Assembly (NCBI RefSeq): GCF_030936135.1
Contig: NC_082595.1
Coordinates: 85,922,451-85,986,450 of the forward strand
Length of the DNA stretch: 64,000 nucleotides
DNA from: Gavia stellata
Lineage: Eukaryota; Chordata; Aves; Gaviiformes; Gaviidae
Reading direction: 5' to 3'
Shown here: piece by piece, positions 12,798-43,600 of the stretch
Layout: each line of letters opens with the position of its first letter
Position numbering within the stretch: the first letter of the stretch is position 1
Translations under genes and position numbers: made by a program
The notes under the pieces: model-generated
Told to the model about the DNA's origin: nothing
Database searches by the model: none
What the model saw: only the letters and a program-made list of their open reading frames with translations

Positions 12798-15700
12798 CTG
12801 AAAACAAAGAATGTGCGTGTATTTAACAATAAACGATACAGCTTTTGGTTTGAACTTTGGCTTAATTGAAATCAGTGGCAAAATTCCCCTCTTTTTATGA
12901 TGAACACAGTGGTATAAAATAATTCCCTTCACCGTTATTAATGTACTGTTCTTTCTTCCATCCCCTGTATTCTTTAAATCTGAGTTTTATTTATATGCTG
13001 ATATTCCTGTAACTGCAAACCTAAAGAGAAAGCCTCTGTTCCCATATATCCTTGACTTGCCTTTTGCATTTTTCTGCATGATTCCTCTTTGATCTGCCTC
13101 TGAATTTAATAATGAAATTTGACTCAATATCCCTCCCACTATATATAGCTCCTGCTACATCATGTTCTGTTACCTATCATCTGACAGTGTAATTCTTGAA
13201 ATCTGGCCATTTAATTTGGTCCAAGAAAATGTATCATTTAAAAAAAGGCCATGTTCATTTGACTAAGTGAATGCACATTTCTGTTTTCTTACCAAGCATT
13301 GGTGTACAGACAGTTTCTCATGCGGTGTGGGGGGGATGTTTACGGAATCCTATCAGCAAAATCGCGTTTGGTAAGAACACTAACTACAATAGCAGCATTC
13401 ACGGTTCAGTTTCTAAGCATGTTATAATGCTGAATATGCTCATTTCCTTTCTGCATTACCTCTGCCTGCTACAGGGCTAGGAAGGTAGCCTCGCAGAATT
13501 TTTGAATTCAGATTTCACCTTCCCCTGCCATGGGACAGGAAATGAAACCTCCTGAAGCCGGGGATCTCTGCATGAATGGTGGGCATTGTAGATAGGCATC
13601 GTATTTCACTCTTTCTTGCTGACACCCGCGATGTCAGTTCTTTCCATCACTGGGGCATGCTGGACTGGTTTTAAAGACAATCGCAGTGACAACCTCTTAA
13701 CTAAGTCAAAACATTTTATTTTCTGCTTTTCCAATTTCCTAGAACCAATGATTAATATCCCTGTCAAATTACCTGATCTTTAGGAGAGTCAACAGGACTA
13801 TTCCTAGGATGAGAACTATGCAGGAGGAATAGGCAATAATGTAGACTGTTTCACCTATAAGTAAAAAACAGAAAGCAGACCTGAAATATTTATGTCAGTA
13901 ATAGGAATCAGATTTGAGATCTGAATTGGAATGCATACATATGCAAGCTAAATTAGCAATCAATCCTGACATCAGTAATTAAAAGAAGGAAAAAGACCTA
14001 GATGTGTAGGTACTTAGATGTGTAGGCCAATGGTAGGAATAACTTTTCCTTCACCAGTTGGTGCAAAATCATTTTCAGACTCCTTTTAGTAAATACCAGC
14101 TCCAATAACACTGCATATGTGTAGCACTCACTACCTTTTATTCTATTCCACTCCAGGGGAACTGCAACAGCTTGTTACTCTGATTTGTGTTTTGGAGTAT
14201 TTTCCCCGTTGATTTTAAGGTGTTAATTTTATTCTGTGTATCAGAGGAGACCTGGCTCTTACTTGCTAGACCTCTTTTCCTTTTTCGCATATTACCATAA
14301 TTGCAGTGTGCAGAAATACTTGATCTAGAATCAAATTAATGTAAAATGGGATCTAACACTGCTTCTGGGCCCCATTCCCATGGAGTTTCCTCTTTCTCCT
14401 AGGCTTCTCACCAAGAAGTCACTTAGGCGGCTTATGTGCTAAAAAGTCCAACTCGAAAAACGGGGAGTTGTTTCAATTTTTGTTTTCCAAATGAGGAGAA
14501 ACTTATTTTTCTTGACAGAATGAATCCATCAGTTTTGATCAAATATTCTGAAGGAAAAGTTTCAGCTGAGAAGGTAACGTAAGCCCTGAACCTGGGATGG
14601 AGAGGTTAGATGACTTGACAAAAGGACTCACAACCAGAGCCGCAAGCATAAAACATGAGACCTTTCTGTTACTTTCCTGTTGCACTGATTCTGACATGTT
14701 TATACAATTAAATAAGTTTTGTTTATACAGGAACTCAAATGCAGAGTGGCAAAATATGGCCTTAGCTTTTCCCAAAGTGCTCCACCTTACGTAGCCAGTG
14801 AAATATTCACTGAAGAAGAGATGGAGTCCCAGTCCCATCACCAGGCCACTTACCTGGGCCGTGAGAAGCCCAAATTCTTGTCTCTGAATCAGTTATCAGT
14901 TATTATTTATTGTGTGTGTTTGTACATATGGACACACAGACCCTAAATGAGACATTTCTGTATACACTACATATATGCAACAAACGTAGTGTATAGTGTA
15001 ATACAAACACAAGCGGTATGGATACTGGAGCAGCTCCAGTAAGAGAGGGTGAATATATCTTCCTCAAGGCAAGCAGTGGGCAAGAGCTGAGCAGGGAATT
15101 GGACCCGCCTGATTTTTATTATTATCACTTGCTCTCAGAAAGCTATCCAAAAGTCAAGTTTTCCAATAAAAGAAAAATGAAAGCAATGATTGAACCATCA
15201 CCAGTTGCACAGATTTAACATACCCCTTAATGCAGCAAGCTACTGAAAAATATTTAGTGTAGTGAATTTTTGAAGGAATAAGGGTGAGGTCTTAGTCTCA
15301 GTGCGGGACTGATAATATCGTACATTAAAAAATAGATCAGCAGTTGGCCCTCCTCTCAAGTTGCAACATTTCTTTAAGATGATAAGTTTTAGGAAAATAA
15401 CAATTTTTAGGCTTTTTTTGCAGTTTCTGAATCTTAATTGTAAACTCAGTCATTTTCTTGAAACTTGCCACAACTTCGGGAGCAACTGTAGGGGCAAAAT
15501 TTTTCTGTTTTTTTGAAGTGGAAAGTGAGGTTCACACATATTTAAGGCAAATGCATGTTTTGTTAAGTACCTCGCTTACCACAAGACTAGGAAAATTATT
15601 AGGAGTGACAGTCATGGATGGTTAAGAACAGGCTAATATCATTTCACCAAAATATTATAATATTTTTCTTCAAAAAGTTGGAAAAGAAATTTCATTTTGA

Positions 15701-18700: not shown

Positions 18701-21700
18701 GCTCCAATAGAAGGAATAGTTTATTGTATGGTTTAGGCTGGTCAGCATTCTTTTTATTTTTCTAAGGCTATCCAAAATTCTGCTAAGAATTCAAGGACAG
18801 GTTTTTGGAAAATATTCAGACTTCAGTGGGAACAGAATTAACTGGGTGCAGGCTGCATTTTGCAAACATTTATCTGAATCTCTGAGGGAAAGGTCTGCAG
18901 CTAGCACTAGTCACAGGGGTGAGATATCTCACATTTTACTTTTTCTCACTTAGAGCAGGATTTCTTGCATTATAACTTGCATTATTTAACCACTAGAGTC
19001 TCGTTCCAGCTAGAGATTCAGGCTCCCCCTGTAGCTGACAAAGAGAAGTCAACACTTCCAGGACACAGCAAAGACAGTCTGAAAAGGTGGGATTAATCTT
19101 CCTCTGAGGGTCCCTGACTTTCTTCTCTGGCTACACAGAGCACTTAGCTGACATGCATGATTCTTAGGCAAGTAATTTTAATGCTAAAATTACAGCTGAA
19201 TGCTTGATTATTCACATACAGGTCTCAGGAATCCCATTCCCATGAATCTATTTTTATACTTCCCAGGTTGTCCACTTCAGCAATAGTTGAAGGATGGAGA
19301 TGATAGAAACCCCTTCATTTTGTACTGCATGCAGAGCTTGAATTATTTTTTCACTGTTAAAGGTGTTCGGTATGAACAGTTCTGGGAACTAATTCATAGT
19401 AATGTCTGCCCCACGCAAGGTAGAACAGGTCATTCTCACTAGAGTCAATATTTGTGCATTAAGCCCTTTAGTGTTTTCACTCTGTAACTGGGTCCTTCCA
19501 AAGGAAATATAAAATTAATATTATTTGTATATTAAAATTTGTATATTAATTCAATATCCTTTAACTTTATGTCACTTAATTGCTTACTGTAAATGCATGG
19601 AAATAAAACCAGATGCAGCTCTTCAGCCCAATGGATATCATGATCTGCAATTGCGTGCCCTTCTGTTGCATGAGAAGGTAAAGTCTGATGGAGTGCAACA
19701 CAAGCCCCTTCTCAGACCACTTACTGTGGCTTCCTAATTTCATTGTTGTAACTACTATGGCACAAAAAGTCAAGAGAGATGGGAGAGAAGTAGGTGTGAC
19801 ATCAAAGCTAATAATTTGTATTACACATTATGACTACTGTTCTCTAATGACTGTACGGAGAGTCAGGCTCTGGCGGGCTTAATAGCTTAATTTTCCCCAA
19901 TTATAATATAGTGATTGTGAGACATCTATTTCAAAACCACTTACCAGAGAAATTGGTTCAGTCTCATTATCTTTATTTTGTGGTTATATAAGCTAAGCCA
20001 AACGGGTAGAGAGATTTTTCCACATTATGTTGAATGGGGGAGCAACAGGTAGAGTTCACTTGCCTGAACCCACCCAAGGGACCCAACCTTTAGTCTTCCC
20101 TGTCATACACGGGGGAATCACAGAATCACAGAATGATAGGGGTTGGAAGGGACCTCTGGAGATCATCTAGTCCAACCCCTGCCACCACAGCAGGTTGACC
20201 TAGAGCAGATTGCACAGGAATGCATCCAGGTGAGTTTTGAATATCTCCAGAGAAGGAGGATCCACAACCTCTCTGGGCAGCTTGTTCCAGTGCTCTGCCA
20301 CCCTCAAAGGAAAGAAGTTCCTTCCCATGTTTAGATGGAACTTCCTATGATCAAGTTTGTGCCCATTACCTCTTGTCCTGTCACTGGGCACCACTGAAAA
20401 AAGACCCCATCCTCCTGGCACCCACCCCTTAAGTATTTATAAGCATTGATAAGATCCCCCCTCAGTCTTCTCTTCTCCAGACTAAAAAGACCCAAGTCCC
20501 TCAGCCTTTCCTCATAAGAAAGATGTTCCAGTCCCATAATCATCTTCGTAGCCCTTTGCTGTACCCTCTCCAGCAGCTCCCTGTCCTTCTTGAACCGGGG
20601 AGCCCAGAACTGGACACAGTACTCCAGATGCGGCCTCACCAGGGCAGAGTAGAGGGGGAGGACAACCTCCCTCGACCTGCTTGCCACACTCTCCTTGATG
20701 CACCCCAGGATGCCATTGGCCTTCTTGGCCACAAGGGCACATTGGTGGCTCATGGTCACCCTGTTGGCCACCAGGACTCCCAGGTCCCTTTCCACAGAGC
20801 TGCTCTCCAGCAGGTCAGCCCCTAACCTGTACTGATGCATGGGGTTATTCCTCCCCAGATGCAGTACCCTACACTTGCCTTTGTTGAATTTCATGAGGTT
20901 CCTCTCTGCCCAACTCTCCAGCCTGCCCAGGTCACACTGAATGGCAGCGCAGCCTTCCGGTGTGTCCGCCACTCCTCCCAGTTTTGTGTCATCAGCAAAC
21001 TTGCTGAGGGTACACTCTATCCCTTCATTTTTCAAGAGAAATTTCAAGAGTACTTCTATTAAAATCATGGAGTGGTTTGCCCAAACTCACCATTAATTGA
21101 AGAATGGAGTTGTGCTCTGGAAATCTTTTCTCCTGGCATTTCTGTATTTACCCAGTGAAAACCTTTCTTCTTAATGGAAATTTGACCTGAATATTGGAAA
21201 GAAAATATCCATTCAAAATATTATTTTAAAATAATAAGTGAATATTGCTGTTTGGTGTTTTCATAGAATCATAGAATGATTTATATTGGAAAAGACCTTT
21301 AAGATCATCAAGTCCAACCATTAACCTAACACTGCCAAGTCCACCACTAAACCATGTCCCTAAGTGTCTCATCCACACATCTTTTAAATACCTCCAGGGA
21401 TGGTGACTCAACCACCTCCCTGGGCAGCCTATTCCAGCTTTGATAAGAGTCACAGAATTTATAAAGGCAGCTATTAAAAAATATTGTTTACTGATACTCG
21501 ATGAACAAAGTGAATGAATGAGAGTCCTTCCTTTGACATGTCAGTTAAACTTCCCCTGTAGTTTGTCTTATGGGGGAGAAGTATGCTTTAAAAATATTCT
21601 CTGCCTCAAAACAGCTTAAATTCTCTTTTCACATAAACTGTTTTAGGAATAGGCCCACCAAAAGAATTGGGCCCACCAAACCAATATAGAGTGATGAAAA

Positions 21701-24700
21701 ATGGGTAGTAGTTTGAAGTCACTTCCAAAAGGCAGAGGTTATTCTCCAAATGAATTGCTAGACATCAATCCAGTCTTTCACAAAGGCCTGTCTCCTTAGT
21801 GGGCATAATTTCATCGATGTATCTGAAAAGATGTATCTTCTGTTGAAATGAAAAATAGAAGGTTTAGCTAAGTAGAATAGTTTACAGAGCAAGAGGCTAA
21901 ACCATATAAGACTACGCATGGTCATTCACATGAACTTTAAGCTGAGAAATTTGTATTCCCTAAATGAATGAAAACAAAGGCTTATGTCTGCAGCCTGGAA
22001 CATTGTCTAAATAACAATGGACTAAATCTCCTTGTAATGTATTTTTTCTGTGAGATGCAAAAGTACAACTCAGAGTTAAAATATTTTGGAAACTTAACTT
22101 TTTACTTTCTGTCACTGGCATTTTTGCTCATTCCTGTTGTGACACTGATGCTACATTGGCACTGATCCACTCTGTGTTTCTGGCTCATATAGCAGCCAGT
22201 TACTCACAGTTTTTGCCTTTTACTGAGTCTGCAGCAAGCTTTAATCCTGTAAGGACAGCGCCAAGAGCAAACACTTGTAGCACAGCAGTGCCATGCAAGA
22301 GCAGGAAGATGGGATGGTGTAAACACCACTTGCGGATCTGTTCACATCAGTTCTAGAGGCAAAGATCCTTTTTGCTAGCCCTGGGCATTTGCCTATTGAG
22401 AAAGACTTCAATGTTAAAAATCATCATCACTGTAAGAGTGAAAGTTATCCAAAGTTCACACCCAGGCCAGATGAATGAGTTTGCAGAAGGGGTTGGATGA
22501 GGTCTGCAACAGAGCACTCGCTCCATGTCTCTGAACTGCCATGCAGTTAACGGCATTTAACACTGTGGCTTACAATCAAACCCGTAATCATCTCTCTCTT
22601 CAGTTTAGCTGCATTACAACTAGACATCTAGAAAAAACAAAAGCAAGATTCATCAGATGCTGCAAATGTTCTGTAGCATAGGTGCCAATCCTTTACTCAG
22701 CCAAAGGCCCTGGATCCCCAAACTGGTTTCGTTTACCTAGCAGGAATTTGTTGCACCACAGGAGCAAGCAAGCTTCTGTTTTTCAATCCCAATTAGGTTA
22801 GGGGAGTTTCCATCACACAAAGAAACCATTTTATCCTGAGACTGCTTCAGGGAATGGCAAAAGCTCATGAGCAATTATTTGATTATTATGACATGAGGGT
22901 TATCTTTTTGCTTTGTAGGTAAAGAATAGCTAACATAATGTTGTGATTACTCATTTGGATCGTTAAATGCAGCCATAAAGCAAGCAAACAAATAAATAAC
23001 ATTCATCAGCAAAATCACTGCCAATAGTCTCAAATCTAAGTGTGTTATGATATCACTTTTCCAGGGGAGTTGTTATACAATTTTTAATCTTTTCTCAGAG
23101 TCTGAATTTTAGTAGTGATCAACTAAGATTAAGGGCAGTGTTTCAGCAACTTAATTTTAATTTCTGGGTAGACTTTGAGTGACAAGAAAAAAAATTACAC
23201 GCTTATCAGTGGTAAAATTTTGGCCGCTAAAACTGAAAAATTAGCTAATTCATTCCATGAAATGCATGCATGCAATTAATACATGTGTTTAAAAGACAGT
23301 CCATCAGATGGAACTATGAAATAGTCATTGCTTTTCATTGAAATCTTTAGATATAGTTACCTCTCCCAAGGTAGGCTGAGAATATACATAATTACATATA
23401 GAAGACGACTGGCATAGGGTATGATGCACTAGCAAATAGTATATCCTAGGAGGATTTATATAGCAAAATAGCCGGTGTCATAGATCAGAGATTTGAGGAG
23501 AAGAGGATACTTTGGTATTTAATCTGGTCCATGGATGCCTGGATGTAGCTGGAGCATTGGAGAGGCAGCAGATGAACCTTCAGGTTCAGTTTTAGGCTGC
23601 AGGAGTCCAGGAAACACCCTGTGATGTGGAACCATCCTGTGATGTGACCCACAGCACAATAAGTGGGGACAAACAGGGGATTTGCTTTGAAGGCATACTC
23701 CTGACTCAGACTAAAACATTAATATTTGCTCCCATATGGCCATTCACTGCACTAACAATTCTCTCTTAAACAGAGACTTGGCAAGGTCTTTTATATTTAA
23801 CAAAAATAAGTAGCTGATTTACCACATGAAAGGCTTTACTGGTTCTGAGAAAGTACATATATTTCATCTGAGTTAACCTCAGTGTTAACCCCTGAAGCCT
23901 CCATTCACAGCAGCTTTTTCTTTGAGAGGTCCTATTTAAATCATTGAAGTTATTTTTTGTGGAATGAAGTCTGTGGCTAAATGTGTGTGAGCTATACTAA
24001 TATTTAGACTCCAAGAAGAAAAGAAAGAAAAAACAACATAATATGTCATATTATTTGTAAAAACTGTGTACTGAAGTACAATGTTAAGCCAATAACAGGA
24101 AGACTTTAGACTTTTCTAATCTGTGTAATAGTATAGATCCCAGAAGTTATTCTTTTATTGTTATTCAAGCAAATTCACGTAATGAGACATGTAGTCAATT
24201 TTATTGATTTAACACTAATATAAAATATTTCCCAAAACCAAAGGAAAAAACTGTACATGCAATTTGTATTTTGATTTGGATTAAAAAAACCACAGATATA
24301 ACTCTTGTTGAAATCAGTGGTAGCAAAGATATAGTGAAGATTTGGTTTAAGTCAGCATTTTAATACTCTTTAAAACTAAGTTTTATGTGTTACTCACGTA
24401 ACTCACTGAAGCAGGATTTGCTGTGAAGCATGTGATGGAAGAGCTTGCACAAAGACTGCTCTGCAGGAGGTAAATTCTGGCAGGTGCACTCCATGCGCAG
24501 CATCGTGCCCCAGTTACTAATGTAGGCTGCTTCGCAATCAGCATTTGCAGAACAGGGCATGTCACCCTTGATTAAAGTTTCAAGACAAGCTTCATCATCG
24601 TAGCATTTTTTTGTCACGTGTCTCCAACACTTTGACCGAAAAGTTGTGTATTTTTTCCTGGTGGAAAAAAAAGAAGTATACAAAGACAGTTTAAAAACTC

Positions 24701-27700
24701 TGTGATTTCACAAAAAGACATTTAAGGATCATCATGAAAAGAGAGTGTATTCCCAAGGTACCACTTAAGCCTTAAAAGTCACAATATTCTGTGATAGCTG
24801 GCCTAAATTCTGCTCTGTTTTGCACCAAATTGGTTTGAGGAAAAACTCGGTTTTACTGAAAAAGTTTTTGAGAAAAAGCAACTGCACTTCTAATCAGCAC
24901 ATATGGAGATTTTCCCAGGGTCCAGCAAAAATCACTGTGAATACCAACAGTTTCAGATCCTCAGAGAAGAAATGCGGGTAGAAGAATTAGAGCAGTCATC
25001 ACAACGAAACTACACCAGGTGCTGTTCTAGTGGATCAGTTTGATGGGCAGTGTGAAGGAAGAATGACTGTTCAACTTATTTTACGTAAAACAATCTACAT
25101 CCAATGCCAACCCTTCCTCCCCCTGAATGCTAACAAAATACAAAATGTCCAAGGCTCAGGAAAAATTAGAAGCAATTCAGTTGACCTTAAAGATTAATTG
25201 GTAGCGGAGATAAGTTATAAGAGGAATTAACTTGTTTCCCAGCCTAATAATCTAAAATTATTTCAGTTTATTTGCTCTTAGGATAGAATAAAATTGGCCT
25301 TTAATGCATTATGCATGACAATAGAAAATATCTATTAAAAGTTAGCTAAGAAATCTATAGCTATTAATTAGAAACCAATTTACCACTTACATTAAACATT
25401 AGGAGACGATAAAGGTAAACTGTTGTATATTGTACATTAATATATGAAAACATTTTTTCCTTAATCATAAAATTAGATTATTAATTTACTGTTGATATTG
25501 TGTAGCTGTTACAAGAAAGTCACAAGGAAAAGCGTGGACTGTTACAATACCGGCTGGGACATTACTGTCAAGCAAAGGTTTCAAAGCAGATGCCACCTCT
25601 GTGCTAATGGAATTATTTTTATTCACCTCCTGGTTTATAGATATGGCTAGCCATAATTCACAGACTAATTTTGCTAATTACGTCCGCTTATTGTCAGTGC
25701 CAGGAAGTGTTAATGTTCCCAAAATAACGGGTAATTCAGCAAGTCTCCATTATGATATTACATGTGTACACATGTACATGCACATGCACATGCACAGGCA
25801 TACATTTGTAGCCCAGTTCTTGACATAAAAAGGGGCAATTCCCCCTGACATCAATCTGAATAGCCTGCACAAAACTGAAAGCGTCTCTTGGCCTCCTGGT
25901 TTGTTGACTGACGGTTAATTTGAGCACAGGTCTAATCTACAAGGGAACTGGTGACTATGCTGAAAACCGAAGTGGGCCAATTGACTATCCACAAATGGTG
26001 GCAATTAAGTAGAACTACAAATATGGGCTAATCATGTTGCGTGTTTTCTAAAAATAAAATAAAATCTGAAAACTGCATTATTCTTCATGAGTTTGGTGGT
26101 CTGTGTATGTTTCAAGGCAGCGTTTTTCAAGTATCAGTATGCTTGAGGCAAAAAGAATAAGATGAAAGTTTTCTGAACGGGCCAAGCTGGTTGTATGGCT
26201 GTTGGGTACAAAGGGTCAGACTGTGCAGTGGAAGAGGTAATTACTTTAACCAAACAAACTTCGTCCGGTCTGCTGCACAATATGTGCAAACTGCTACAGG
26301 GCAAAGGTGCAGACTGGCAGGCGTTATCTGAAGAACATGGTAATGAAAATACTCAGCGGCATAGTTTGTCTAGCAGAAATAGTGTTAAGAGTCATGAAAG
26401 AAGCAGCAAGAAAGCCCACACTAAATTCTAGACCTTTCTGAAAGTGAACCTTTTCTGTTTACTTGTGGAATTACCACAGCTGATACAGACATTTGCGAAG
26501 ATGTCAAACACAAGTGATAAATATACAATAGATACAGTGCAGAATTTTTTTTTGCAATAGATGAGATATATGGCATATATATAAAATTATTTGATCAAAT
26601 CCTTATTCACAGGTACATTACTAGGCAAAAATCATTCTTCTACTTACCTGCACAGTTCATTCTTTTCACACATGTGGATTACATTCAGACATGATGGGGA
26701 TGGAACTGCAGTAACTGCACAGGGTTTGCCATGGAGAAGTTCTTTGGCTCTGTGGCAGGATTCATCAGGCTGGATACAATCACAAAATGTCATCATTTGG
26801 GCAACTTCAAAAGGCATGTTTCGATAGAAGAACCTTATGGCTGCTTGACATTCTTCCATGTTGCACTTCCTATTTATTGAGCAAACCTTAAGGTACAGGG
26901 ACAACTGTTTGTTACATACTTCATCTTCAACACACTCTTTGTTCACATCCAAACAGGTCCTGTTTGCTGTGTATGCTAAAAAGAATAATAGTTTTTAAAA
27001 TGAAATCACAAGTAACCTTTCTCAAGTGATGATTGGTAGTCATCCTGCCTGCAACATCACCATTAAAAACAAGTTTGACTCCCCAAAACTCTGATCCAGC
27101 TCTTTGAGCATTGCCTCTTTTAAGCCCATTGTGTGATCTTCATACTTCTACTGCTTGGCCCTCATAAGCAACCCTCCTGCAAGCTTCTGCCCCTGCCAGA
27201 TAAAGAAGGGAGAAGAAAGTGAAAGCTGGCAAGATGGAAGTTTCTTCATGGTATGTAACAGTTTCTGGAAGCTAGTGGCTAGTGGATACCTGAAACTGCT
27301 GAAATCTCCAGCATGCAGTCTTATGCTAGGATACGTGATAAGTAACGGAGAAGAGAATATAAATGGCATTTCTGAGCTTTTAAAGCTAGTTTAGGTATTT
27401 CTAGCCTATGCTATAAACCTTACAAAAAGATCTAGACAGTTCTGACCATAAGATGTTTATGGGATAAGATTTGACTCTGTAAATTTAACAGGATCAGGAT
27501 TGTTACCTGACATTTTTGGATTCTTATCTACCCAGTAGCTTAACTGAAAATATGTTGGATCTATTGACTCCATGCTCTTCAGTAATTTGAATGAAAAGTA
27601 TTCCTTTTAATCTCAAGATAGATTGTACACTATTTGAAAACAGAGCTAAAACCAGTTATAAGGATTCATAAGTAAATTCAGACTTACCTTGTTTGGAGAG

Positions 27701-30700
27701 CGCGGATAAACTCCATTGTAATTTTGTTTCTGTACTAATATTGTCTAGAAAAAAAAGTTACGGATACTGGCGTAAGTAATAAGTCATGTTTTAGCTTAGT
27801 TTTTAACTTTAAAGTATTGGCTGCGCTGCTGGCATAGTGCCAGTAGTAAAAATAAACACAAATAAAACAAATTAGCTTGATCAAATAGGACCTGCTCTAA
27901 AATCACTGTTACATATATTCATAAGTTTTGGGGTGAAAGCACAGTTTATCAAGGGCTTCTGATAACATTCTCTACATAATTATAGATCCTGGGACCTCAA
28001 GAAGAGTTTATAGAGCTGCTCAGCACAGTATAAAGTCAGATTTCTTGTGAGTAAATAAAGGCCATAGGCTTTAATGTGTTCATCAGTGCACCCAGTTTTC
28101 AAGCTCAACTAACTGCTTGTCATGATCTAAAGTCATTTGTCAAGATCTAAAGACATAAAGTCATTAGAAAATTATTGTTATCGGTCTTATATTGTTTCTA
28201 GTTATAGTGTAATACTAAAAGGGACTGATTTGGATCAGGTTGTATCAAATTAACACATTGAAGGACAATAGTATTTGCACTCAGGCTATCATTTTGCTAT
28301 CAGATTATTCATTCACATCTAAATAAGCCTCTTAAAACTATCCTGTTTCCAATGTTAAACTGCAAATGATTAAGAAAACCTTTTTCACAGACTTGTGCAC
28401 ACTACTGTTATGTATGAAAGCATTCAGACTGCTGGAATACCACTAACCTGTGTCAATGTCGGGATTTTTCTCATCATCAATATCATCATCATCATTGTCG
28501 TCATCATCATCATCATTTTCACTAGCTGCTGAAGCTTGCCTTTCTTGAGAGTTGTGTAAACAAGGGTTGTTAAATATTCCCTTCCATATTTTAATGCATC
28601 TCATCTGGAGTGGTTCTGAGCACTTGCACTCTCCCAGCACTGTTTTTCTCAGTTCTTTCCATGCTGACAAACACTCCTGGTTGACCATTGGGAGCCTGCA
28701 CTTTGCTGTGTCTGCCTGGCATGCTCGCTGGAAGCTCTTATACACTAGAAAACAGTGAGGGTCCTCTCGACAGCGTTGCTTTGCAATACCACAGTCGTTC
28801 TCTAATTCTTCTGGGTGTCTTTGGTCTTTGGGGTTTCTGTGTTGCCTAAAACTCAGTCCAGTATCTGACCTTGAGGAAGTTTCCAAATATGCTGTACAAA
28901 TAGGTACAAACAGAGATATAAATCAAGTAGAAGATGGAGCATCACCACTGGTCAGCTCAAAACTAACTCAGGAAAAGGATAATTGTCTTAATGCAATAAA
29001 ATGAATGAAACAGCCCTAGTTTCATTTTGATCTGTATCTAAATGCATAATAATTTCAGGGTCTTGCAGACTAATGAATCTTGATCATGCTTGCCGTGTCC
29101 TGGTAGCTGTATAATACAGCTTACTTTAACAATTCAGCTGCTAACAGTAATATGAGAAACCCTCACTAAAATTACTGCATAAAGGGATTAATCTCATACA
29201 ATTTTAACCACCTACAGATTGGACATATCATGGATTATCATATTAATTCAATGCATAAATTATAAAGAGAGAATGGCAATTCCAGAAGATGGTTCATTCA
29301 TTACCTAAAATAGTCATTTCAGATAGACAGGGAGAATTACTCTGGAAAGTATCTACCAACACCTTAAGATATCATCTGTAGGTAAAACCGATACTGGTGT
29401 AACTCCATCCAAACTTTTTGCTATATCGGTGAGAAATGTAATCTCAATTAGCAAAAAACCATAAAATTACTTTATTTTACTACAAGCAAAAGCAACTGTT
29501 CCAATGACATCAACATCAGATTTTAGATACTCACTCTTCTTGTTTGGGGCAAGGAGTAATGGATCAGGATGCTATTATTTCCTCTGCCATAAAGCCATAT
29601 ATTCTACTACTATATGATGTATGCTGATTGATGCCAGGAGGGATTGATGGAACAGAGCTGGGAATCAACCTTGGGGCTCACTTTCCAGGCTCTCATTCAC
29701 TGGCTAATTTTACCTCTCTTATGTCAGCTTTGCTAAACGTAACTCCAGGAGACATTGGATCAGAAACTGCAAGCCTTTCATGCACCAAGTAATTCTCAAT
29801 TACATAAATAGATTTTCTGAAGGGAAAAGAGTTCTCAGGATAATAAAAAAATAAATTTAAAGGAGCTGGGCCCGTTGATTACAATGGAATTTTTAAAAGG
29901 ATGCACTTTATATATTAAGTACAGCTTTATGAAGACAGTAACTGTGTTTCCCACATCCAGTAACACCTCCTAGATGTAATGAAGACAATGTGACACAACT
30001 GCACAGCTGTGCATCCCCATTCACCCACCGTCCCATTCACAAGGTGGCTGGATGTGGCTCTCTATACATACCACAGATCCAGCGGCGCTCAGGCCTCCTT
30101 GGGCAACAAGTAGCCCTCAACACACATAGTATTTTCACTCTCGCTTTCCATTGGATTGAGCAAGAGCTTTAAAAACCATTTTAATTTCTCACATGTCTTG
30201 TATTGGTTTTGTTTATTTTAAAGCCGATATGGCATTGCTTTCATATGCATGTTGGCGTGGGAATATCATAGAAAAGACAAAAATAATTTTTTTTGGGAAT
30301 TATCAGATTTGAGAAATATGCAAAGAAACTTGAATCCAGTTGAAATGAGGGTTACAAAATCATATATTTCTTTTTGTTCTTCATAATTAAATCTTTATGT
30401 TTAGTTACCTTTATCAATGCTGCACTGTTTCCCAAGCAAAGTTGTGATGCTACAGAGATCATCTGTAGTGCAGACACAGTTTTTAAATTCCGGGTATTCG
30501 TCAGCCAGGACTTGGATGATTCTATTACATCCAATAGCATCTTCAGTCTTGCATCTATTACCTAGAACTTACCATTAAAATTATAATGTTGTTAATGCTT
30601 ATGAACGCTTAAGGGATATGGTTACATAAAACAATTCAATTGAAGCACAAAAATAATATGTTTTGCCAAGAGAAGATGGTTTGAACTTAGTTTTGTTTGA

Positions 30701-36700: not shown

Positions 36701-39700
36701 GCATGCTTTATTTGATTTGTTTCTTATTCTAATACAATATTTGAAAATTACTCTAAGTAACTACTACATTGTTTTGGGTACCATGTGAGATCATAGAATC
36801 ATAGAATGGTTTGGGTTGGAAGGGACCATAAAGACCATCTAGTTCCAACCCCACCGCCATGGGCAGGGACACCTTCCACTACACCAGGTTGCTCAAAGCC
36901 CCATCCAGCCTGGCCTTCAACACTTCCAGGGAGGGGGCCATTGTCAAGGATTTCAGAAGTTGACTGTCTTCTGTTGCAATTTTCTCTTTGAAATCTCACT
37001 GACATCATTCAGTTACCAGAGCAATATTATGATAAATTATGAATATGCAACCATTCAGCAATTCAAAATAAAGCTGTGTACACCATAAAGAATTACCTGA
37101 AATATTGAAAGCATTACCTGAAATATTGCAGACATCTTCAACAACATTCCAGATACTCTCACATCCATTTGCAGCATTTATACATTGCTCCCTTAAGTGC
37201 AGACAGTCAGTAGTCTGGGCAGTAGATATATTTGTGAGGTACATGAACAACGCTGTAAAAACAGAATATAATGACTATTTAATACAATAGCTATTGTACT
37301 GACCTTTTTCATTTACACTTATATTATAACAAGATAACTTACTGTTTTTTATTTATAGATTCAAATTTTCTGTCAAGTTACTTTTTAACAGAATAAAACT
37401 TTTCCTCAGTTTCACAACTGGAAAATTAAATTAAAATTTTAAATTTTCAAAGCTGCAGTGTGACATATTTTTCTTATTTTTACCCCAGTATTATAACATC
37501 AACCATAGCTATATATGACATCAACCCATGGATACATAGAAATGACTGAAGTTCTGACATCCATAATAAATTATACAAAGGAAGACAGTATAAAATTCAG
37601 AGGAAACAGCATTTTTTTTGGACTACAACTTCATCAAGCTAGAGAATACACAGGAATTCCGATGACTAATAAATGAGATTTTATTTCATAAGACAGTACT
37701 ATTCACCCTCTTTGTTTTTACTTCATGGATGCATCATTTCTTGAAAGCAACCCCCACATTTATGTCTTTATCTGCTTCCCTGAGTGCACTGAAGCTGAAG
37801 ACCATGTTAATTGCATAAAAAAGTTCTGAAGCTGAAGACTGATATGGAGGTTTCAAGGTAAATAATTTTAAATCAGCACCACCTCTGGCTTATCAGTAGA
37901 AAATTAAATTGCCTAAAAGACAAATCAGTTGGGGTTTAGCTCTTTCATTCTCATGGTAACACAACCTCTAATTTGTAACCATGTGTCTTAATTTTCTATA
38001 AAATTAAGTTTCAGACACTGATTTCAGGTCTTATCAAAACAGCTGCTGAACACCTGATGGGAGTGTTTTCCTTAGGTATTGAAGGACACAGCATCTCCCA
38101 GATCAAGTATCTTTTTTTTCTTTATTTTCAGGCAAGTTCATATGGAATTTGAGGAATTTCCAGCACTGTTTAATTCCTTAAACATCATCTCCAACAGGCA
38201 TGAAATATTCCCTCAGGACTTGTCCAGACCCTATCCATAGAAATGAAATGTTTCCAATGATATATTTGAGAAATAAGAAATGAAATATCAAGTATCACTC
38301 TTAATAATCTTAAAGAGCCACTACTGTTTAGAGCTGATGCCATCCCTTCTGGAAATTATGCTTACCTGTGATACAACAGTGCTGCTGTAGGGAACACTTT
38401 CTGGTTGCATGTTGATAAAGATGAAGCAACATTTAACACTTTACAACTGACAGGGGCAATAGCATCTATTGGCCTCAGAGACACAGAAGAGGCCACATGT
38501 GCTTACTATGAGAGCGTGAATGGGGCTGGTGCTAATCCTTTTTCAGTTGTGCATATGCCTGCCAGTTCTCAGCTCTATGAAGGGTTGGTTGTGATTTCAG
38601 TGATTTCCAGCCTGAAACACTCTTTTAGGCTGTGTCTGTCAGTCAGCCTGGAAGATAGAAACGGCTCCTGCCACTTGACATTGAGGAATGTGCAGCTGGC
38701 CAATCCACAGGGACAATTTTGGCTCATTATGACAACATTTTAGTCCTGGGACTGTCTCCAAAAGTTCTTTCTAATTATGAGATGACTCACTATTTATTCA
38801 GATGACAGAGAAAAAAAGTTGCCAAATGCCTTACAGGTGAAAATGGCTGTATATAGAAGATAATGCAACATTACAAACCCAGGAACTTTTTAAGAAAAGG
38901 TAATTTGCTGGATGACCATTCACCTATTTTGTGGCTACTAACACATCGAAAGATTTACGCATCCAATTAGGATCCATAGCACAAAGACTCTGTGCTGTCC
39001 CCCTCCTGTTAAGACAGCTTTTCGGAACCAGTGCCTGAAAATGAATAGTCAAAGTAGGACTGATTGAGCAGCCAATTAGCAGTTCCTGCTCTTTTGTAAG
39101 GATTATTTCAGAGTGTGTTTATTTTGAACCCACCTGGAAACTGTGCCCACAAAAAGGAGGAGATGCTTTTGCAAAATAACTATGATTGAAGCTAATTCAG
39201 TCCAAGCAATGGCTTCTCTAGATCTAATGACATGTTATGGATGGGTCTTTTGTTTCCTCAGTAGTACACAGGTAGCATACTGTGGCAAGCCTACCTGAAA
39301 CAAACAGGCCTATATGATTTTAGAATCCAGTGCACGGTAGCTTATACAATTGCTTGAATTGGCAGCTATTAACTTTAGTCATTCACTTTAGTTATTTACT
39401 CCAGTGTTTGGAGTACTAAGTGACTGTTTTCTAGTTAGAAGAGTTCAGGGCATCTAAGAGTTAGTTACTTTTAGAGGGATCCATTTTGATATGAAGACAC
39501 ATAAATTTAGATTTCTACAGGTGTCTGTATTTTTCTACAGGTGTCTATTGATTCATTGGGTTGATGTAAAATTCCCTGTTCTGAAGAACTCAGTGTCTAA
39601 AGTGAAAGGGGGGAAAAAAGGACGTTTTAGCGCCTTCATTTTGCAAATTGGGAGCTGAAGCACAGAGGAATCACAATGTCTCTCTTAAGATTACAGAACT

Positions 39701-40505
39701 ATTATCTGGCAGATAATAATGAGTAATGGGAAACCAAGCCGTGGTTTCTATCCGAATGCAAGAGCAGCAAGATAGCTGGCGCCAAAGGAGAAAAGCAAAC
39801 TATGGTTGAATATAGTTTGAATATAGTTGAAATGTGATAAAGAACAACTTTATTCTAATAAAAACTGGGGCAGAACTACGTACAGAATGTTTTTAACATT
39901 GGAATATGAGTTTAGAGTGGTGGGATGTTAAAGAGAAAAGCAGAAGGTGTACAATATGTAGAAAGGGGGAAAGGAGAATAAAATAAACTCAAAAATACTT
40001 GTCTCGTATTCTCTTCTACCAATTCTTTCTGTACCAGCTTTGTTGATTTTCCCTTTTTCTCCACTCAAACCCAAAGGGTAATGTCAATAGCCCTCCCTGT
40101 AGCACTGCCAGCACTAAATGCTTTCCACTTAGCAAACAAGTGCCTGTTCATTTAGACAGGGCATCCCATTTGTGGGTCCCCTCGCCGGCTGAACTTACTA
40201 CCGGTGCCGGCCCTGCTACCCTGCCTTACCTCCCGCTTCAGAGACGCTATCCGGAGCCGGGGTGAAGACGTCTGCGCCAAGCCGCAGGGCCTGGACGTCG
40301 CAGGCTGGTGCGAACCCCCGACAGGTACCTGCTCGCCCCCGCCTGGAGGCTCCCCAGGAGAAGGAGCAAGGGATGGAGCTGTAAGGGGAACCCGCGGAGA
40401 GGAGAGGCCCGGCGGCGCGGGGCGAAGCGAGGGGCCCGGCGAGGCTGAGGGCTGCCTCCCTCCCCACCTCCCGCGGCACTTACCGAGGCAGAGGAGCGCG
40501 GCCAT
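12710..40505 (-). CDS. GFRAL: GFRAL, GDNF family receptor alpha-like (GDF15 receptor), complete, ten coding exons
   Basis: Join, in transcription order: 40505-40484, 37252-37118, 30561-30409, 28891-28448, 27744-27688, 26975-26648, 24657-24407, 21186-21091, 13854-13773, 12797-12710. The total is 1656 nt, in frame, 551 residues. In mammals GFRAL is a hindbrain receptor that binds GDF15 and recruits RET to suppress feeding. The protein shows a signal peptide (MAALLCLALFMYL), domain D1 (exons 2-3), an extra ten-cysteine domain plus acidic stretch (exon 4), a linker (exon 5), D2 (exon 6), D3 (exons 6-7), a stalk (exon 8), one TM helix (exon 9) and a 30-residue basic tail (exon 10). Every junction has GT/AG and compatible phases. 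From the start Met to the first D1 Cys is 24 residues, the same as I count in human. Without exon 4 the product is 403 residues, against about 394 in human. The homology was recognised from memory of human GFRAL, not from a search. Confidence 0.93.
12798..13772 (-). other. GFRAL: GFRAL intron 9
   Basis: A 975-nt intron bounded by GTAATT and TTTTCAG. I saw no repeat or exon inside it. Confidence 0.8.
13773..13854 (-). CDS. GFRAL: GFRAL exon 9: transmembrane helix
   Basis: An 82-nt exon entering in phase 1 and leaving in phase 2. It reads (G)[19 protein letters not shown] followed by LLTLLKI(R): a hydrophobic helix of about 23 residues ending in basic residues. It aligns with the human NGEVIY...GILLL..KLR segment. 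The acceptor is TTATAG and the donor is GTAATT. It was found by looking for the membrane segment, because the reading frame is too short to stand out as an ORF. Confidence 0.9.
14590..14650 (-). repeat. Possible MIR core relic
   Basis: The + strand has GAGAGGTTAGATGACTTGAC followed by AAAAGGACTCACA. This matches the order and spacing of the MIR core (gagaggttaagtgacttgcccaaggtcaca-like) in reverse complement. Confidence 0.4.
15045..15110 (-). repeat. Possible MIR relic (second fragment)
   Basis: The + strand has AGAGCTGAGCAGGGAATTGG then ACCCGCCTGA, resembling the 'cagagccgggattcgaaccc' block of MIR. It lies about 400 bp from the preceding relic and could be part of the same or another copy. 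Confidence 0.28.
20115..21057 (-). mobile_element. Long CR1 fragment with reverse transcriptase C-terminal half
   Basis: About 940 bp of CR1 in minus orientation, the same strand as GFRAL. The tail side begins with GAATCACAGAATCACAGAAT at 20115. The minus strand has a long open frame (roughly 21040 down to 20331) with the RT catalytic signature FADDTKLGG, then [37 protein letters not shown] and [20 protein letters not shown]. The frame then shifts, and the C-terminal block [11 protein letters not shown]...WNKLPREVV continues in another frame down to 20200. The element is 5'-truncated and frameshifted, so it is not autonomous, but it is the best-preserved copy in the window. The inner boundary near 21057 is approximate. 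Confidence 0.95.
21091..21186 (-). CDS. GFRAL: GFRAL exon 8: juxtamembrane stalk
   Basis: A 96-nt exon, phase 1 in and phase 1 out, with acceptor ...CCAATATTCAG and donor GTGAGT. It reads (S)[19 protein letters not shown] then [12 protein letters not shown](G). It lines up without gaps over the human segment between D3 and the TM helix: KG at the same offset, KIS/KIT, and HSSING/HSPFNG just before the helix. It is not visible as an ORF-level feature. It lies between two CR1 insertions. Confidence 0.87.
21187..24406 (-). other. GFRAL: GFRAL intron 7
   Basis: About 3.2 kb with one CR1 3' fragment (about 21261-21445) close to exon 8. The rest is AT-rich sequence with no recognisable exon. Confidence 0.75.
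21261..21445 (-). mobile_element. CR1 3' fragment
   Basis: The + strand shows the reverse-complemented tail TCATAGAATCATAGAATGAT, then GGAAAAGACCTTTAAGATCA, AGTCCAACC, AAACCATGTCCCTAAGTG and CCTCCAGGGATGGTGACTCA. About 185 bp remain, ending at the conserved GGGCAGCCTATTCCA block. It belongs to a subfamily different from the 20115 copy and similar to the 5620 and 52885 copies. Confidence 0.95.
24407..24657 (-). CDS. GFRAL: GFRAL exon 7: C-terminal part of domain D3
   Basis: A 251-nt exon, phase 2 in and phase 1 out. It starts (R)[20 protein letters not shown] and ends at [15 protein letters not shown](S). The cysteine spacing ([45 protein letters not shown]) follows human D3 closely. The family's RET-contact and GDF15-contact surface lies mainly in D2-D3. 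The preferred donor is GTGAGT right after TTCA (exon end 24407), which gives the human length. A second GTGAGT nine nt downstream (exon end 24398) would add three residues. Confidence 0.93.
24658..26647 (-). other. GFRAL: GFRAL intron 6
   Basis: About 2 kb of AT-rich sequence. It includes an alternating purine-pyrimidine stretch near 25756-25803. No CR1 copy or extra exon was seen. Confidence 0.75.
25756..25803. repeat. Alternating purine-pyrimidine (CATGCA/ACATGT) tract
   Basis: A run built from ACATGTGTACACATGTACAT followed by three GCACAT-type hexamers. Such strictly alternating tracts can adopt Z-DNA in vitro; no role here can be inferred. Confidence 0.65.
26648..26975 (-). CDS. GFRAL: GFRAL exon 6: domain D2 and start of D3
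   Basis: A 328-nt exon, phase 1 in and phase 2 out. It encodes [20 protein letters not shown], a run with [15 protein letters not shown], then [32 protein letters not shown], a stretch ending GKPCAV, and the D3 start [15 protein letters not shown](R). [14 protein letters not shown] and FCDC motifs are near-identical to human D2, the main GDF15-binding domain. An NRT sequon sits at the domain entry. The donor is GTAAGT and the acceptor is TTTTTAG. Confidence 0.95.
26976..27687 (-). other. GFRAL: GFRAL intron 5
   Basis: A 712-nt intron; nothing else recognised. Confidence 0.8.
27688..27744 (-). CDS. GFRAL: GFRAL exon 5: D1-D2 linker
   Basis: A 57-nt exon, phase 1 at both ends, acceptor TTTTTTTTCTAG, donor GTAAGT. 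It reads (D)[18 protein letters not shown]. It corresponds to the human linker DNVKEDKFKWNLTT..., which in human directly follows exon 3, so this exon anchors the comparison that shows exon 4 to be additional. It carries an NIS sequon. Confidence 0.88.
27745..28447 (-). other. GFRAL: GFRAL intron 4
   Basis: A 703-nt intron, donor GTTAGT. Nothing else recognised. Confidence 0.78.
28448..28891 (-). CDS. GFRAL: GFRAL exon 4: additional GFR-alpha-type domain and poly-Asp stretch
   Basis: A 444-nt exon, phase 1 at both ends, acceptor CTATTTGTACAG, donor GTTAGT. It begins (A)[17 protein letters not shown], then a ten-cysteine block: [53 protein letters not shown]. The order C-x6-C-x5-C-x10-C and the later CxC followed by C-x3-(I/L)-(W/Y) are the hallmark of GDNF-receptor domains. 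The exon ends with an aspartate-rich run ([18 protein letters not shown]) encoded by a GAT repeat. The human protein, as I recall it, has no counterpart: exon 3 joins directly to the exon 5 equivalent. Exclusion keeps the frame, so it could be a cassette. Long open frame, clean splice sites and intact cysteines argue that it is coding. Confidence 0.85.
28470..28520 (-). repeat. GFRAL: Coding GAT trinucleotide repeat (poly-Asp)
   Basis: An imperfect (GAT/GAC)n run inside GFRAL exon 4 encoding twelve Asp with two interruptions (N, I). Length polymorphism is likely. Confidence 0.9.
28892..30408 (-). other. GFRAL: GFRAL intron 3
   Basis: About 1.5 kb, AT-rich; no repeat family or exon recognised. 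Confidence 0.78.
30409..30561 (-). CDS. GFRAL: GFRAL exon 3: second half of domain D1
   Basis: A 153-nt exon, phase 1 at both ends, acceptor AAGTTCTAG, donor GTAACT. It reads (G)[18 protein letters not shown] then [18 protein letters not shown] and [14 protein letters not shown]. It matches human D1 (PC...YCN..IQ.LVE...FKECLCTDDFYC...LLGKKC). The frame continues through both splice sites. Confidence 0.92.
31517..31556. repeat. 20-bp tandem duplication
   Basis: Two adjacent copies of a unit beginning TTGCTTAAGAAAGTTACA, differing only in the last two bases. It is a recent local duplication in GFRAL intron 2. Confidence 0.9.
33320..33846 (+). mobile_element. CR1 fragment, plus orientation
   Basis: It begins near GTGAGACCACATCTGGAGTG, with the residues [13 protein letters not shown] and LSLEER readable in frame. 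It passes through GTGACAGGACAAGAGG and ends with AGAGGTCCCTTCCAACCTCA and a decayed tail (GTTTCTCTTATTCTAAG). Its frame is broken in several places, so it is older than the 20115 copy. It lies antisense to GFRAL. Confidence 0.92.
36791..36945 (-). mobile_element. CR1 3' end fragment
   Basis: The + strand shows TCATAGAATCATAGAATGGT, then GGGTTGGAAGGGACC, ACCATCTAGTTCCAACC, CATGGGCAGGGACACCTTCC and TGGCCTTCAACACTTCCAGG. This is the reverse complement of a CR1 3'UTR of a subfamily different from the other copies here. It lies about 150 bp from GFRAL exon 2's donor side. Confidence 0.95.
37093..37125 (-). promoter_or_regulatory. GFRAL: Duplicated splice donor of GFRAL exon 2
   Basis: The sense strand carries CAATATTTCAG|GTAAT twice, 21 nt apart (exon ends 37118 and 37097). 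Both cuts leave phase 1, so using the distal donor inserts seven residues, NAFNISG, with another NIS sequon. Confidence 0.7.
37118..37252 (-). CDS. GFRAL: GFRAL exon 2: signal peptide end and first half of D1
   Basis: A 135-nt exon, phase 1 at both ends, acceptor CTGTTTTTACAG. It reads (A)[19 protein letters not shown], then [20 protein letters not shown] and VCNIS(G). Signal-peptide cleavage is expected before or around TAQTTDC. It matches human QTNNCTYLREQC...ANGC..AW.VMEDAC. The preferred donor (exon end 37118) gives the human length. A second copy of the same donor lies 21 nt downstream (exon end 37097). Confidence 0.92.
37253..40483 (-). other. GFRAL: GFRAL intron 1
   Basis: About 3.2 kb starting with GTAAGT. 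It contains a MIR-like relic near 39625-39740. An open + frame at 38405-38743 (112 codons) shows no domain or homology I know and no promoter or splice context, so it is not called as a gene. Confidence 0.75.
39625..39740 (-). repeat. Probable MIR-type SINE relic
   Basis: The + strand runs CATTTTGCAAATTGGGAGCT, GAAGCACAGAGGAATCACAA, then CTTAAGATTACAGAACTATT and ATCTGGCAG. This parallels reverse-complement MIR: lower-case consensus 'attttacagatgaggaaactg', 'aggcacagagaggttaagt', 'aaggtcacacagctagta', 'agtggcag'. Confidence 0.5.
40484..40505 (-). CDS. GFRAL: GFRAL exon 1: start codon and signal peptide
   Basis: The start ATG lies in a strong context (GGCCATGGCC) and encodes MAALLCL plus one base, then GTAAGT. 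Joining to exon 2 gives [20 protein letters not shown], a good signal peptide. The distance to the first D1 cysteine equals that of human GFRAL, and human exon 1 likewise encodes only about seven residues. The frame is open upstream within the GC-rich island, so an N-terminally extended start is formally possible but would bury the signal peptide. Confidence 0.85.
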
Positions 40506-40617
40506 GGCCGGCCGCTGGCGGCTGCAGCTCCGCGCCCAGCGGGTCGCGCCTGGCGGCAGGTGCCGGTGTGGCACCGCCCCTTCAGCACCGGCCGCGGGGA
40601 CAGCGCCCCGCCCGCCC

Positions 40618-40661
40618 GGCCCCGGCCCCGGCCCCGGCCCCGGCCCCGGCCCGGCCCCCGG
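40618..40661 (-). repeat. GGGGCC hexanucleotide repeat upstream of GFRAL start
   Basis: Five perfect GGCCCC units on the + strand (40618-40647), followed by two imperfect units. Read on the GFRAL sense strand this is (GGGGCC)n, about 113-156 nt upstream of the ATG. The G-runs are suitable for G-quadruplex formation. Confidence 0.9.
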
Positions 40662-43600
40662 CAGCGCTTGCCGCACGGGGCGGACCGTGGGTGGGTGTCG
40701 TGCCGACAAGGCCACGGCAAGGGGCGGGAGCGGGCAGGTCTGCCACCCTTCCGATGTAAATATTGCATCTTTCTCTGCCCACCTCCTTCGGTCGGGAGCA
40801 GTGGACGAAACTTCCCACCACGTCCCCTGCGAGCTTCCTTTGCTGCCATTGTTATACCCTTGGCTTACATTTCTCTTTTTGCCATAATCGTTAAGCTGGA
40901 CTGCGCCAAGGAGATATGGTTCTTGGGCATTTTTCACGGGATCCGGCAGTCCCTCTGCATTCAGTCCCACTTGATTTCTGGAGAAACTAACAGAGCAAGT
41001 CTTTGGCTGCTGCCTATAATCTCTCTGAAAATGCCTGTTGCTGTGTCTGATCTTCTTCTGTAAGCACTGGTCAACGCATTTTAGAAGTGAATTTGTTTGT
41101 TTTCATCTCAGATGTGAAATAGGATCGTGATCTATTAAGGAGAGAGAGGAGCTACGGAGCATGTGACAGTAGACCAGAGGAACAAGTAACTAGTCTATAG
41201 TCTAGACCCATACTGGACTACGGGTCTAACTTCAGGAGTTTCACTAAAATACATCGAAAAACAGTTTACCATACAAAAGTCAGCAGCTGACTTGGCTACT
41301 TATTAAAAAATAAATCAACTATAAATCTTCCACACATGCACCTGCTGGCTTTACTGCATGCCCTTTTTTGCACTGGAAGCGGGAGTAAACAACAGATCCC
41401 TATTGATTTCTCCATGCTACTTGTGAGTCTTATTTTCACAAGTTGCTTATCCCATACAGAACATTTTAAATTGGATTTGGTCTTTGAATGCTTAAAACAA
41501 AAAGACATCATAAAAATTCCAGTACAGCTAGGAGAGACAGAGTAGTACTTTCCCTATTGGCAAAGTAGAACTTGAGCGAAGATTTTGCTTATTTTTTTGT
41601 TTAGCTCAGGAAAATTCAATCTCACATATAAGTAAGTTCTTAATTTTTTTAACTCAGATTTTAACTTAGTTAATTTATTACATTCCTTATTTAAACTCTT
41701 AATGCCAACATTGCTAAATACTTGTCTTTTTTTTGGAAAGTGTATGCAATAAAATAAAACACTATTTCATCCAATAAATCCAACATCCAGGAAAAAAACT
41801 TACTGTCAGGTAAAAGGAATAACCTTAGAAATGAACATGATTTTAGCTCTGAGACAAATTTTAGATTGGAAGGCTAAACTTGCCTTGGCCTTAATCCGTT
41901 GTAACATGCAGCAGTAGGTTGCAATGCATCTTCCAGTGAGGGCTGAGTTAAGCTAATGTTTAGAGTACTCTCCTTCCTATATCTGTTCCTATATATCCTA
42001 TTATCTTGCAGTCATTGTGACTGCAGGGCACAGGCTTATCACTACAGTGACAACAGGGAAGGAGAAGGAGGGCAGGATATCAGACCTCCAAGACTGTAAA
42101 ATATGTTAAGACACAAAGTACCAGAGTGATGGTGGCACAACAATTTATGTACGCAGGAACAAACATGTTGTGATTTGAACTCAATTTGTCTAATGATGCT
42201 ATGACCAAGCAGAAACAATGGCAGGAGAATTCCATTTCTATGCTCCTGAGTTGCTAGTGGAAATATTAGCATACCAAAGCAGCTAGAGGTAACAAAACCC
42301 AATTAAGGCTCAGCTTTCAGATAATTTTCAATATTTATAGACTGGATAAGAAATGCTTATTCTTCACCTGACCTTTTTTGATGGATAAGATGCACAGAAG
42401 TTTTTTTAACATGCTTTAATTTCTGTCACATGCAAAAGACATTAAATTCCATATTGCTCTTAAAATCCTACCCTGTCTTCTCACAGCCATTTCTATCTCC
42501 ATTAATATCCACTGCTCACTGTTGGGTTTATCTTTACTGAAAACTCCCAGTGATTATTTTCATACAAAAATAAATCCAGCTGGATAATATTTTGAATATA
42601 CCCAAATACTTGGATCTTTCTGGAGTAAAAGGTCCTAGAACTGGCAAAAAACGCTTCACTACTTTACACAGGTAGACAACAGATTTTTAAATGCCTATGT
42701 AGTTTTTCTGATGAAATGGTGCCTGAAAACATATATGAGATAAAGAAGAAAATGTCTAGGTATTTCTCAAATTTTGTAAAACTAAAGAAATAAATACATA
42801 TGAATATTTGCATTAAAAATATTTTTAAAAACCAGAAACCTTTGAATGACAAGTATTTTCATCAAAATAACCAAATCTTTAGCTTGATAACCATATTCTC
42901 TGGCAAGAATAAGTTAACACTTTCTACCTATCCTTAGACTTACAAATCTTAGATAAGCTCTGATGGTATCACTTGTGTCTCAAAGATATGCTATTTACTC
43001 AACAAAAATCTGGCCAGAGAAAAACCCAGAATAATTTGTAAATGAATGTCTCATCTTTTATTTATATTCTCCACACAAAAAGTACTGTTAAGTTAAAGTT
43101 ATGGCTAAAAGAAATTCCTAAGAATGTTGGAATATTTTTATTTTGGGGATTTAAGTGATAATAAAAAGAGAGAACAAAGGAACAAAAGATAATTTTTTCT
43201 CTTACAAAAGAGAAAATTAAGGCCAGAACCTCCATTTCTAACATGTCATGGGAGACCTGCAGGAGTCAAAAACTGCCAATGACCTTTAGTGGTGATCTCA
43301 CCTCAGATTAACTAACACAATTTATCCCACTGGCATTAAGGTAGCAGCAAGAAGAAGACAATTTCAGCTGACAGGTGGTGTTCAACCCCCCTTTAGAAAG
43401 ATGCTACTTATGGTTTTTCCATGAGCATCACTACCACCACCACCACCCCCTGTTCATCTCACAGGGATCTGGGCAACTCGCCTGACACGGCGTGAGAATT
43501 TTGCTGGTTTTCCACAGTCATCCAAGTCATTCAAACTTTTATGTTTGAAAAGGATGCATACTCCCCTTTTATAGTGACAAAGTTTTTTTAGAAAGCTACT

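Follow-up and report, generated by a model that had tools for sequence, protein, structure and literature searches.

The GFRAL locus

The window, that is, the whole 64,000-nucleotide stretch of Gavia stellata DNA analysed here, carries on its minus strand, from 40505 to 13773, the gene for GFRAL, the established receptor of the nausea hormone GDF15. Nine coding exons are recognised (Table 1), which join into a frame of 525 codons with no stop; a short last coding exon, expected beyond 13773, was not found. Sequence and exon order identify the gene as the GFRAL orthologue, as exons 2 and 3, D2, D3, the stalk and the transmembrane helix surround exon 4 in frame. Whereas mammalian GFRAL counts three extracellular domains, the bird gene has four. 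The domain encoded by exons 2 and 3 is the textbook D1 of GFRAL and is also referred to here as the N-terminal or D0-like domain. All five junctions from exon 1 through exon 6 lie in phase 1, so that the presence or absence of exon 4 leaves the frame unchanged, and when it is left out the other eight exons form an open frame of 377 codons. Ten of the 67 open frames listed for the window were scanned against Pfam; the D2 and D3 exons matched, and the other eight frames stayed below the cut-off.

Table 1. Features of the GFRAL gene, in window coordinates.
Feature	Position	Strand	Length	Phase	Content	Basis or match
Exon 1	40484..40505	minus		ends in phase 1	start of signal peptide (ATG)	read from sequence, splice scores
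Exon 2	37118..37252	minus		1-1	first half of textbook GFRAL D1	matches human GFRAL D1 in 6q2j
Exon 3	30409..30561	minus		1-1	second half of textbook GFRAL D1 (exon 2-3 domain)	
Exon 4	28448..28891	minus	444 nt	1-1	GFRalpha-D1-like domain and acidic Asp-rich tail	
GAT trinucleotide repeat in exon 4	28471..28516	minus			encodes Asp-rich tail	15.3 copies, 81% matches
Exon 5	27688..27744	minus		1-1	linker to D2	human counterpart in 6q2j
Exon 6	26648..26975	minus		1-2	D2 and start of D3	Pfam GDNF, 49.7 bits
Exon 7	24398..24657	minus		2-1	rest of D3	Pfam GDNF, 27.4 bits
Exon 8	21091..21186	minus		1-1	juxtamembrane stalk	
Exon 9	13773..13854	minus		1-2	transmembrane helix	

Elsewhere along the gene, the end of exon 2 and the donor site that follows it are doubled by a 21-base tandem duplication (37087-37128; 2.0 copies, 95% matches), which offers two in-frame donors 21 bases apart, so that the exon 2-3 domain could gain seven residues. 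A GC-rich stretch immediately upstream of exon 1 contains eight copies of the hexanucleotide CCCGGC (GGGGCC-type on the strand of the gene; 40615-40662). Intron 8 holds an open frame of 251 codons on the minus strand (20331-21086) with no Pfam match at E<=0.01, which, from the impression its sequence gives, may be part of an interspersed repeat.

Exon 4 as a coding exon

A first-pass annotation of this DNA had described exon 4 as a 444-nt exon in phase 1 at both ends, joined to its neighbours by the junctions 30409-28891 and 28448-27744, and these coordinates and phases proved correct throughout. The exon is open across 147 full codons and encodes some 30 leading residues, followed by a domain with ten cysteines and the Asp-rich tail. 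The translation likewise contains the cysteine pattern reported at that stage (C-x6-C-x5-C-x10-C, followed by CKC and RCIKIW), and all ten cysteines align with those of GFRAL D2. The splice sites, which had been called good, rank accordingly: among all AG and GT sites on the minus strand of the window, scored with position weights, the acceptor (tttgtacag/CATA) belongs to the top 4.1% of AG and the donor (ACAG/gttagt) to the top 0.9% of GT, and both scores fall within the range of the other GFRAL exons.

The Pfam GDNF profile (PF02351) matches exon 4 over its full length (positions 1-87 of 87) with 30.5 bits at a cut-off of 22. When the whole genome was searched in six frames with the same profile, exon 4 came out among 15 matches (31.7 bits, E 3.0e-4); twelve others lie in threes on four contigs and are read as GFRA1-4, one is GAS1-like and one is GFRAL D2. 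Exons 2 and 3, the textbook D1, give no Pfam GDNF match at E up to 1. A chance open frame is ruled out by the Pfam match together with the probability of 147 open codons, which is 1.5e-5 given how often stops occur in the introns on either side, uncorrected for the choice of place.

A duplicated stretch of the assembly is also ruled out, as a genome-wide DNA search found no second copy of exon 4 among the matches listed. This search, in which 26 candidates were scored and counts are lower bounds, gave at least 31 matches, comprising exon 4 itself and at least 30 others, all of which touch only bases 368-428 of the exon, the GAT-repeat tail. Repeats matching the GAT microsatellite thus occur at many genomic sites, and the length of the Asp-rich tail that it encodes may vary between individuals and species. 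A scan of genome contigs returned one bacterial match (44% in the best segment, query residues 20-55), which was taken for chance, and a scan of viral contigs returned none.

When decay by substitution alone was simulated, 14% of runs kept exon 4 open with ten cysteines at 0.05 changes per site, as opposed to 4 of 4000 runs at 0.18 and 0 of 4000 at 0.3. Since an open frame with ten cysteines seldom survives beyond about 0.2 changes per site if unconstrained, selection has probably kept exon 4 in this line, as judged from this one genome. The exon is predicted to be spliced into the mRNA.

Comparison with human GFRAL

The statement of the first-pass annotation that human D1 runs straight into the linker is borne out by the solved structure: the human chain in PDB 6q2j can be aligned along its whole length to the bird protein without exon 4, with three gaps of one or two residues, the nearest of which is placed four positions beyond the junction. 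Human GFRAL (6q2j, 5vz4) resembles the bird protein along the full chain, in exons 2 and 3, the linker, D2 and D3, with identities of 45% for exons 2 and 3, 58% for D2 and 55% for D3. The D2-D3 unit is open and intact in the bird gene, as the first-pass annotation had stated. Bird exon 4, however, has no counterpart in the human chain of 6q2j and is absent from solved human GFRAL. The original proposal of an additional GFR-type domain that lies on its own symmetric exon and is lacking in the known human protein is supported. In an excerpt of PMC7299427, human GFRAL is described with nine exons and three domains, and skipping of mouse exon 6 is reported to remove D3. In the bird gene D3 lies on the seventh coding exon instead of exon 6, one more, as expected with exon 4 present.

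Domain identity of exon 4

The class of exon 4 was assessed in an alignment of 21 domains: exon 4; the exon 2-3 domain, D2 and D3 of bird and human GFRAL; D1 and D2 of the four GFRA genes of this genome; two GAS1 domains; one zebrafish and one human GFRA D1; and two human GFRA D3s. Exon 4 reaches 32.7 bits on the D1 profile (six GFRA rows), a score equalled by none of 1000 shuffles with fixed cysteines (maximum 22.6), and stays between 28.5 and 34.2 bits when any one of the six rows is dropped. On the D3 profile (four rows) it reaches 14.1 bits (0 of 1000 shuffles as high), on the D2 profile (six rows) 1.4 bits (265 of 1000) and on the exon 2-3 profile (two rows) -1.5 bits (898 of 1000). Because genuine D1s score 1.9-18.0 bits on the D3 profile, the 14.1 bits of exon 4 are no argument for D3.

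Searches outside the alignment lead to the same class. With the exon 4 protein as query against the whole genome, the D1 exons of GFRA2, GFRA3 and GFRA4 take ranks 1, 2 and 4 of the eight non-self matches (E up to 10), with E values of 0.06, 0.89 and 2.1 that are singly weak; no D2 or D3 exon is among these eight, and neither is the D1 of GFRA1. Four of the seven sequences listed in a PDB search are GFRs matched in their first domain, namely GFRalpha3 (E 7.5e-4) and GFRalpha2 (0.01 and weaker), and the remaining three are haemoglobins with E about 0.9. Exon structure agrees as well. In all four GFRA genes of this genome, with boundaries set by eye, D1 occupies a single exon of phase 1-1 and the D2 exons are of phase 1-2, which is the arrangement of GFRAL exons 4 and 6. 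The closest class to exon 4 by profile, genome-wide match and phase is therefore the D1 of GFRalpha1-4, although each of the six aligned D1 rows has eight cysteines, as opposed to ten in exon 4. In GFRalpha1, D1 comprises residues 14-120 of chain 4ux8_C and no domain comes before it. In GFRalpha2-4, too, no domain is known to precede D1.

Profile scores and exon phases make exon 4 the best candidate for the regular GFRalpha D1. In the first-pass annotation, by contrast, it was not so identified; that annotation had regarded exon 4 as the extra domain; an added domain of GFR type it is, but on the same profile scores and phases the unusual one would rather be that of exons 2 and 3. A remote link between the exon 2-3 domain and D1 is nevertheless possible from its scores on the D1 profile, which are 5.3 bits for the bird (16 of 1000 shuffles as high) and 7.9 bits for human (2 of 1000).

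The assignment is bounded in several respects. Genuine D1s score 72.9-122.9 bits on the profile of the others, and exon 4 with its 32.7 bits lies far below this range; it is therefore read as a D1-like domain that falls outside GFRalpha1-4, which is what an early branch should look like. By plain identity the D1s barely stand apart from D3 and GAS1, as exon 4 is 23.4-28.6% identical to the D1s, 25.6% and 20.0% to the first and the other GAS1 domain, and 24.7 and 23.5% to two D3s. Counting the non-cysteine residues that exon 4 shares with at least half of a class gives 11 for D1, 10 for D3 and 4 for D2. The domain tree suggested in the first-pass annotation places exon 4 with the D1s at moderate support (84/92), but long branches meet at this point and a grouping with D3 is compatible with the data in the AU test (p 0.479). 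The same test gives p 0.115 for exon 4 with exons 2 and 3 and barely rejects exon 4 with D2 (p 0.0485), and a grouping of exons 2 and 3 with the D1s is not rejected either (p 0.226). GAS1, whose domains are also of GFR type, is placed by the tree on the side of the D1s, though weakly (52/52). In this genome the two domains of the GAS1-like gene, which we take to be GAS1, lie in a single open frame; the D1 profile gives them 10.4 and 8.1 bits.

Structure prediction gave poor models of exon 4, with a mean pLDDT of 67.5 for the 90-residue domain alone and 66.9 with D2 of the window as a second row. Foldseek found no match for either at E<=0.001. In VIA-align, five GFRAL or GFRalpha rows and one GAS1-complex row were among the best 50 for a poor model, and GFR-family proteins made up three of eight in another list from a poor model, in both cases below or among unrelated helical proteins.

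Age and origin of exon 4

The distance between exon 4 and the GFRA D1s can be compared with that between other GFRAL domains and their GFRA counterparts. A profile of the four GFRA D2s gives GFRAL D2 31.4 bits, and one of two GFRA D3s gives GFRAL D3 11.8 bits. As exon 4 is about as far from GFRA D1 as GFRAL D2 is from GFRA D2, its divergence is most simply dated back to the split between GFRAL and the GFRA genes. Between the two origins considered in the first-pass annotation, an ancestral domain lost in mammals and a duplication in the bird lineage, these scores (32.7 against 31.4 bits) favour the former. On the sequence of this one genome, exon 4 is probably as old as GFRAL and was most likely lost by mammals. 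We consider it likely, taking the evidence as a whole, that exon 4 is a GFRalpha-type D1 which has been part of GFRAL since about its split from GFRalpha1-4, so that four domains would be ancestral, kept by the bird and reduced in mammals.

A recent copy of a GFRA D1 exon is ruled out, given the divergence, the ten cysteines instead of eight and the lack of a near copy among the matches listed. A gain specific to the bird line, in which the D1 exon of a GFRA paralogue was duplicated or shuffled into GFRAL and mammals never had it, would suit a symmetric 1-1 exon, which is easily shuffled, and the three-domain state of human could then be ancestral, the vertebrate GFRAL genes compared here being those of the bird and the human chain. 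Such a gain is nonetheless unlikely in our view: exon 4 is at most 28.6% identical to any of the six GFRA D1s, a distance similar to that between GFRAL D2 and the GFRA D2s, it carries ten cysteines where these D1s have eight, and the genome matches listed include nothing close to it. That exon 4 instead derives from another domain of GFRAL, either D3 or that of exons 2 and 3, and resembles D1 only in appearance, seems very improbable. Neither grouping is rejected in the AU test, no shuffle matches the score of exon 4 on the D3 profile, and the residues shared with D3 are only one fewer than those shared with D1; the D1 score, however, is more than twice that for D3, where genuine D1s score up to 18.0, the exon 2-3 profile scores below zero, and GFRAL D3 is split over two exons while D1 exons are single.

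A further alternative concerns usage rather than descent, namely that exon 4 is real but usually skipped or alternative, with most bird GFRAL in a three-domain form like that of mammals. The length of the exon is divisible by three and the frame stays open without it, and an exon-6-skipping form of mouse GFRAL is described in an excerpt of PMC7299427. Neutral drift, however, would not long hold the frame, the ten cysteines and both splice sites, all of which are intact, and its splice scores are within the span seen for the rest of the gene, which makes predominant skipping improbable.

Four-domain receptors and a proposed mechanism

The preferred reading, an ancestral D1 on exon 4, has a parallel in invertebrates. 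According to parts of PMC3527400, Drosophila Gfrl has four domains, D0 to D3, with ten cysteines each, a Gfr-like gene of C. elegans predicts four domains, and the D1-D3 exons have been proposed, with reference to Airaksinen et al. (2006), to share their origin with those of the GFRalpha genes of vertebrates. Drosophila Gfrl resembles bird GFRAL in having four GFR-type domains in a row, whereas its protein is much larger and insects are without GDNF ligands (PMC3527400, in part). By analogy, it is suggested that bird GFRAL fits the four-domain plan with exons 2 and 3 as D0. It is possible, although we lean slightly towards doubt, that bird GFRAL has kept an ancestral D0-D1-D2-D3 order from which GFRalpha1-4 lost D0 and mammalian GFRAL lost D1.

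In the proposed course of events, ancestral GFRAL would have had four extracellular domains, the N-terminal domain of exons 2 and 3 followed by D1, D2 and D3, all of which the bird keeps. The mammalian line would have dropped exon 4, an easy loss since the removal of a symmetric exon is frame-neutral, and the remaining N-terminal domain would be the one that has since been called D1.

According to PMC6760901, the human complexes have the ligand bound by D2 and RET clamped by D3. For GFRalpha2 a D1 is described that is packed on D3 and in contact with RET-CLD1, whereas no D1 can be seen for GFRAL, GFRalpha1 or GFRalpha3 in cryo-EM maps of the ternary complexes. The role of a D1 may therefore be small. 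Replacement of Thr261 by Arg in human GFRAL abolished complex formation in a pull-down (PMC6760901, in part). Among the human residues in contact with RET, with the register counted by hand, Lys251 and Thr261 are conserved in the bird and Ser263 is Ile. The genome also contains a GDF15-like gene (C32:2136055-2136372; 44% identity, E 2.2e-26, next best 6e-18). Given the intact D2 and D3, the conserved Thr261 and Lys251 and this gene, GDF15 signalling through RET is to be expected. By analogy with the human receptor, bird D2 would bind GDF15 and D3 would clamp RET. The D1 of exon 4 may pack back on D3 and add a small contact with cadherin-like domain 1 of RET, as D1 of GFRalpha2 does, with its acidic tail serving as a flexible spacer and the exon 2-3 domain sitting further out. 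In such a complex, exon 4 would supply an accessory D1 bracing D3 while GDF15 signals through RET.

Implications for the GDNF receptor family

No description of a four-domain GFRAL appeared in the titles and abstract openings of the papers listed in literature searches; the comparative studies by Airaksinen et al. (2006) and by Hatinen et al. (2007) may contain one. The excerpts of PMC4349606, PMC5415192 and PMC12542990 do not say how many domains GFRAL has outside mammals. The GDF15-GFRAL axis is a drug target (PMC7299427, in part). If the reading proposed here is true, the “D1” of human GFRAL in the GDF15 drug literature is not equivalent to the D1 of GFRalpha1-4, and comparisons of D1 function between GFRAL and GFRalpha1-4 set different domains side by side. 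A four-domain bird GFRAL would also correct the domain homology across the GDNF receptor family.
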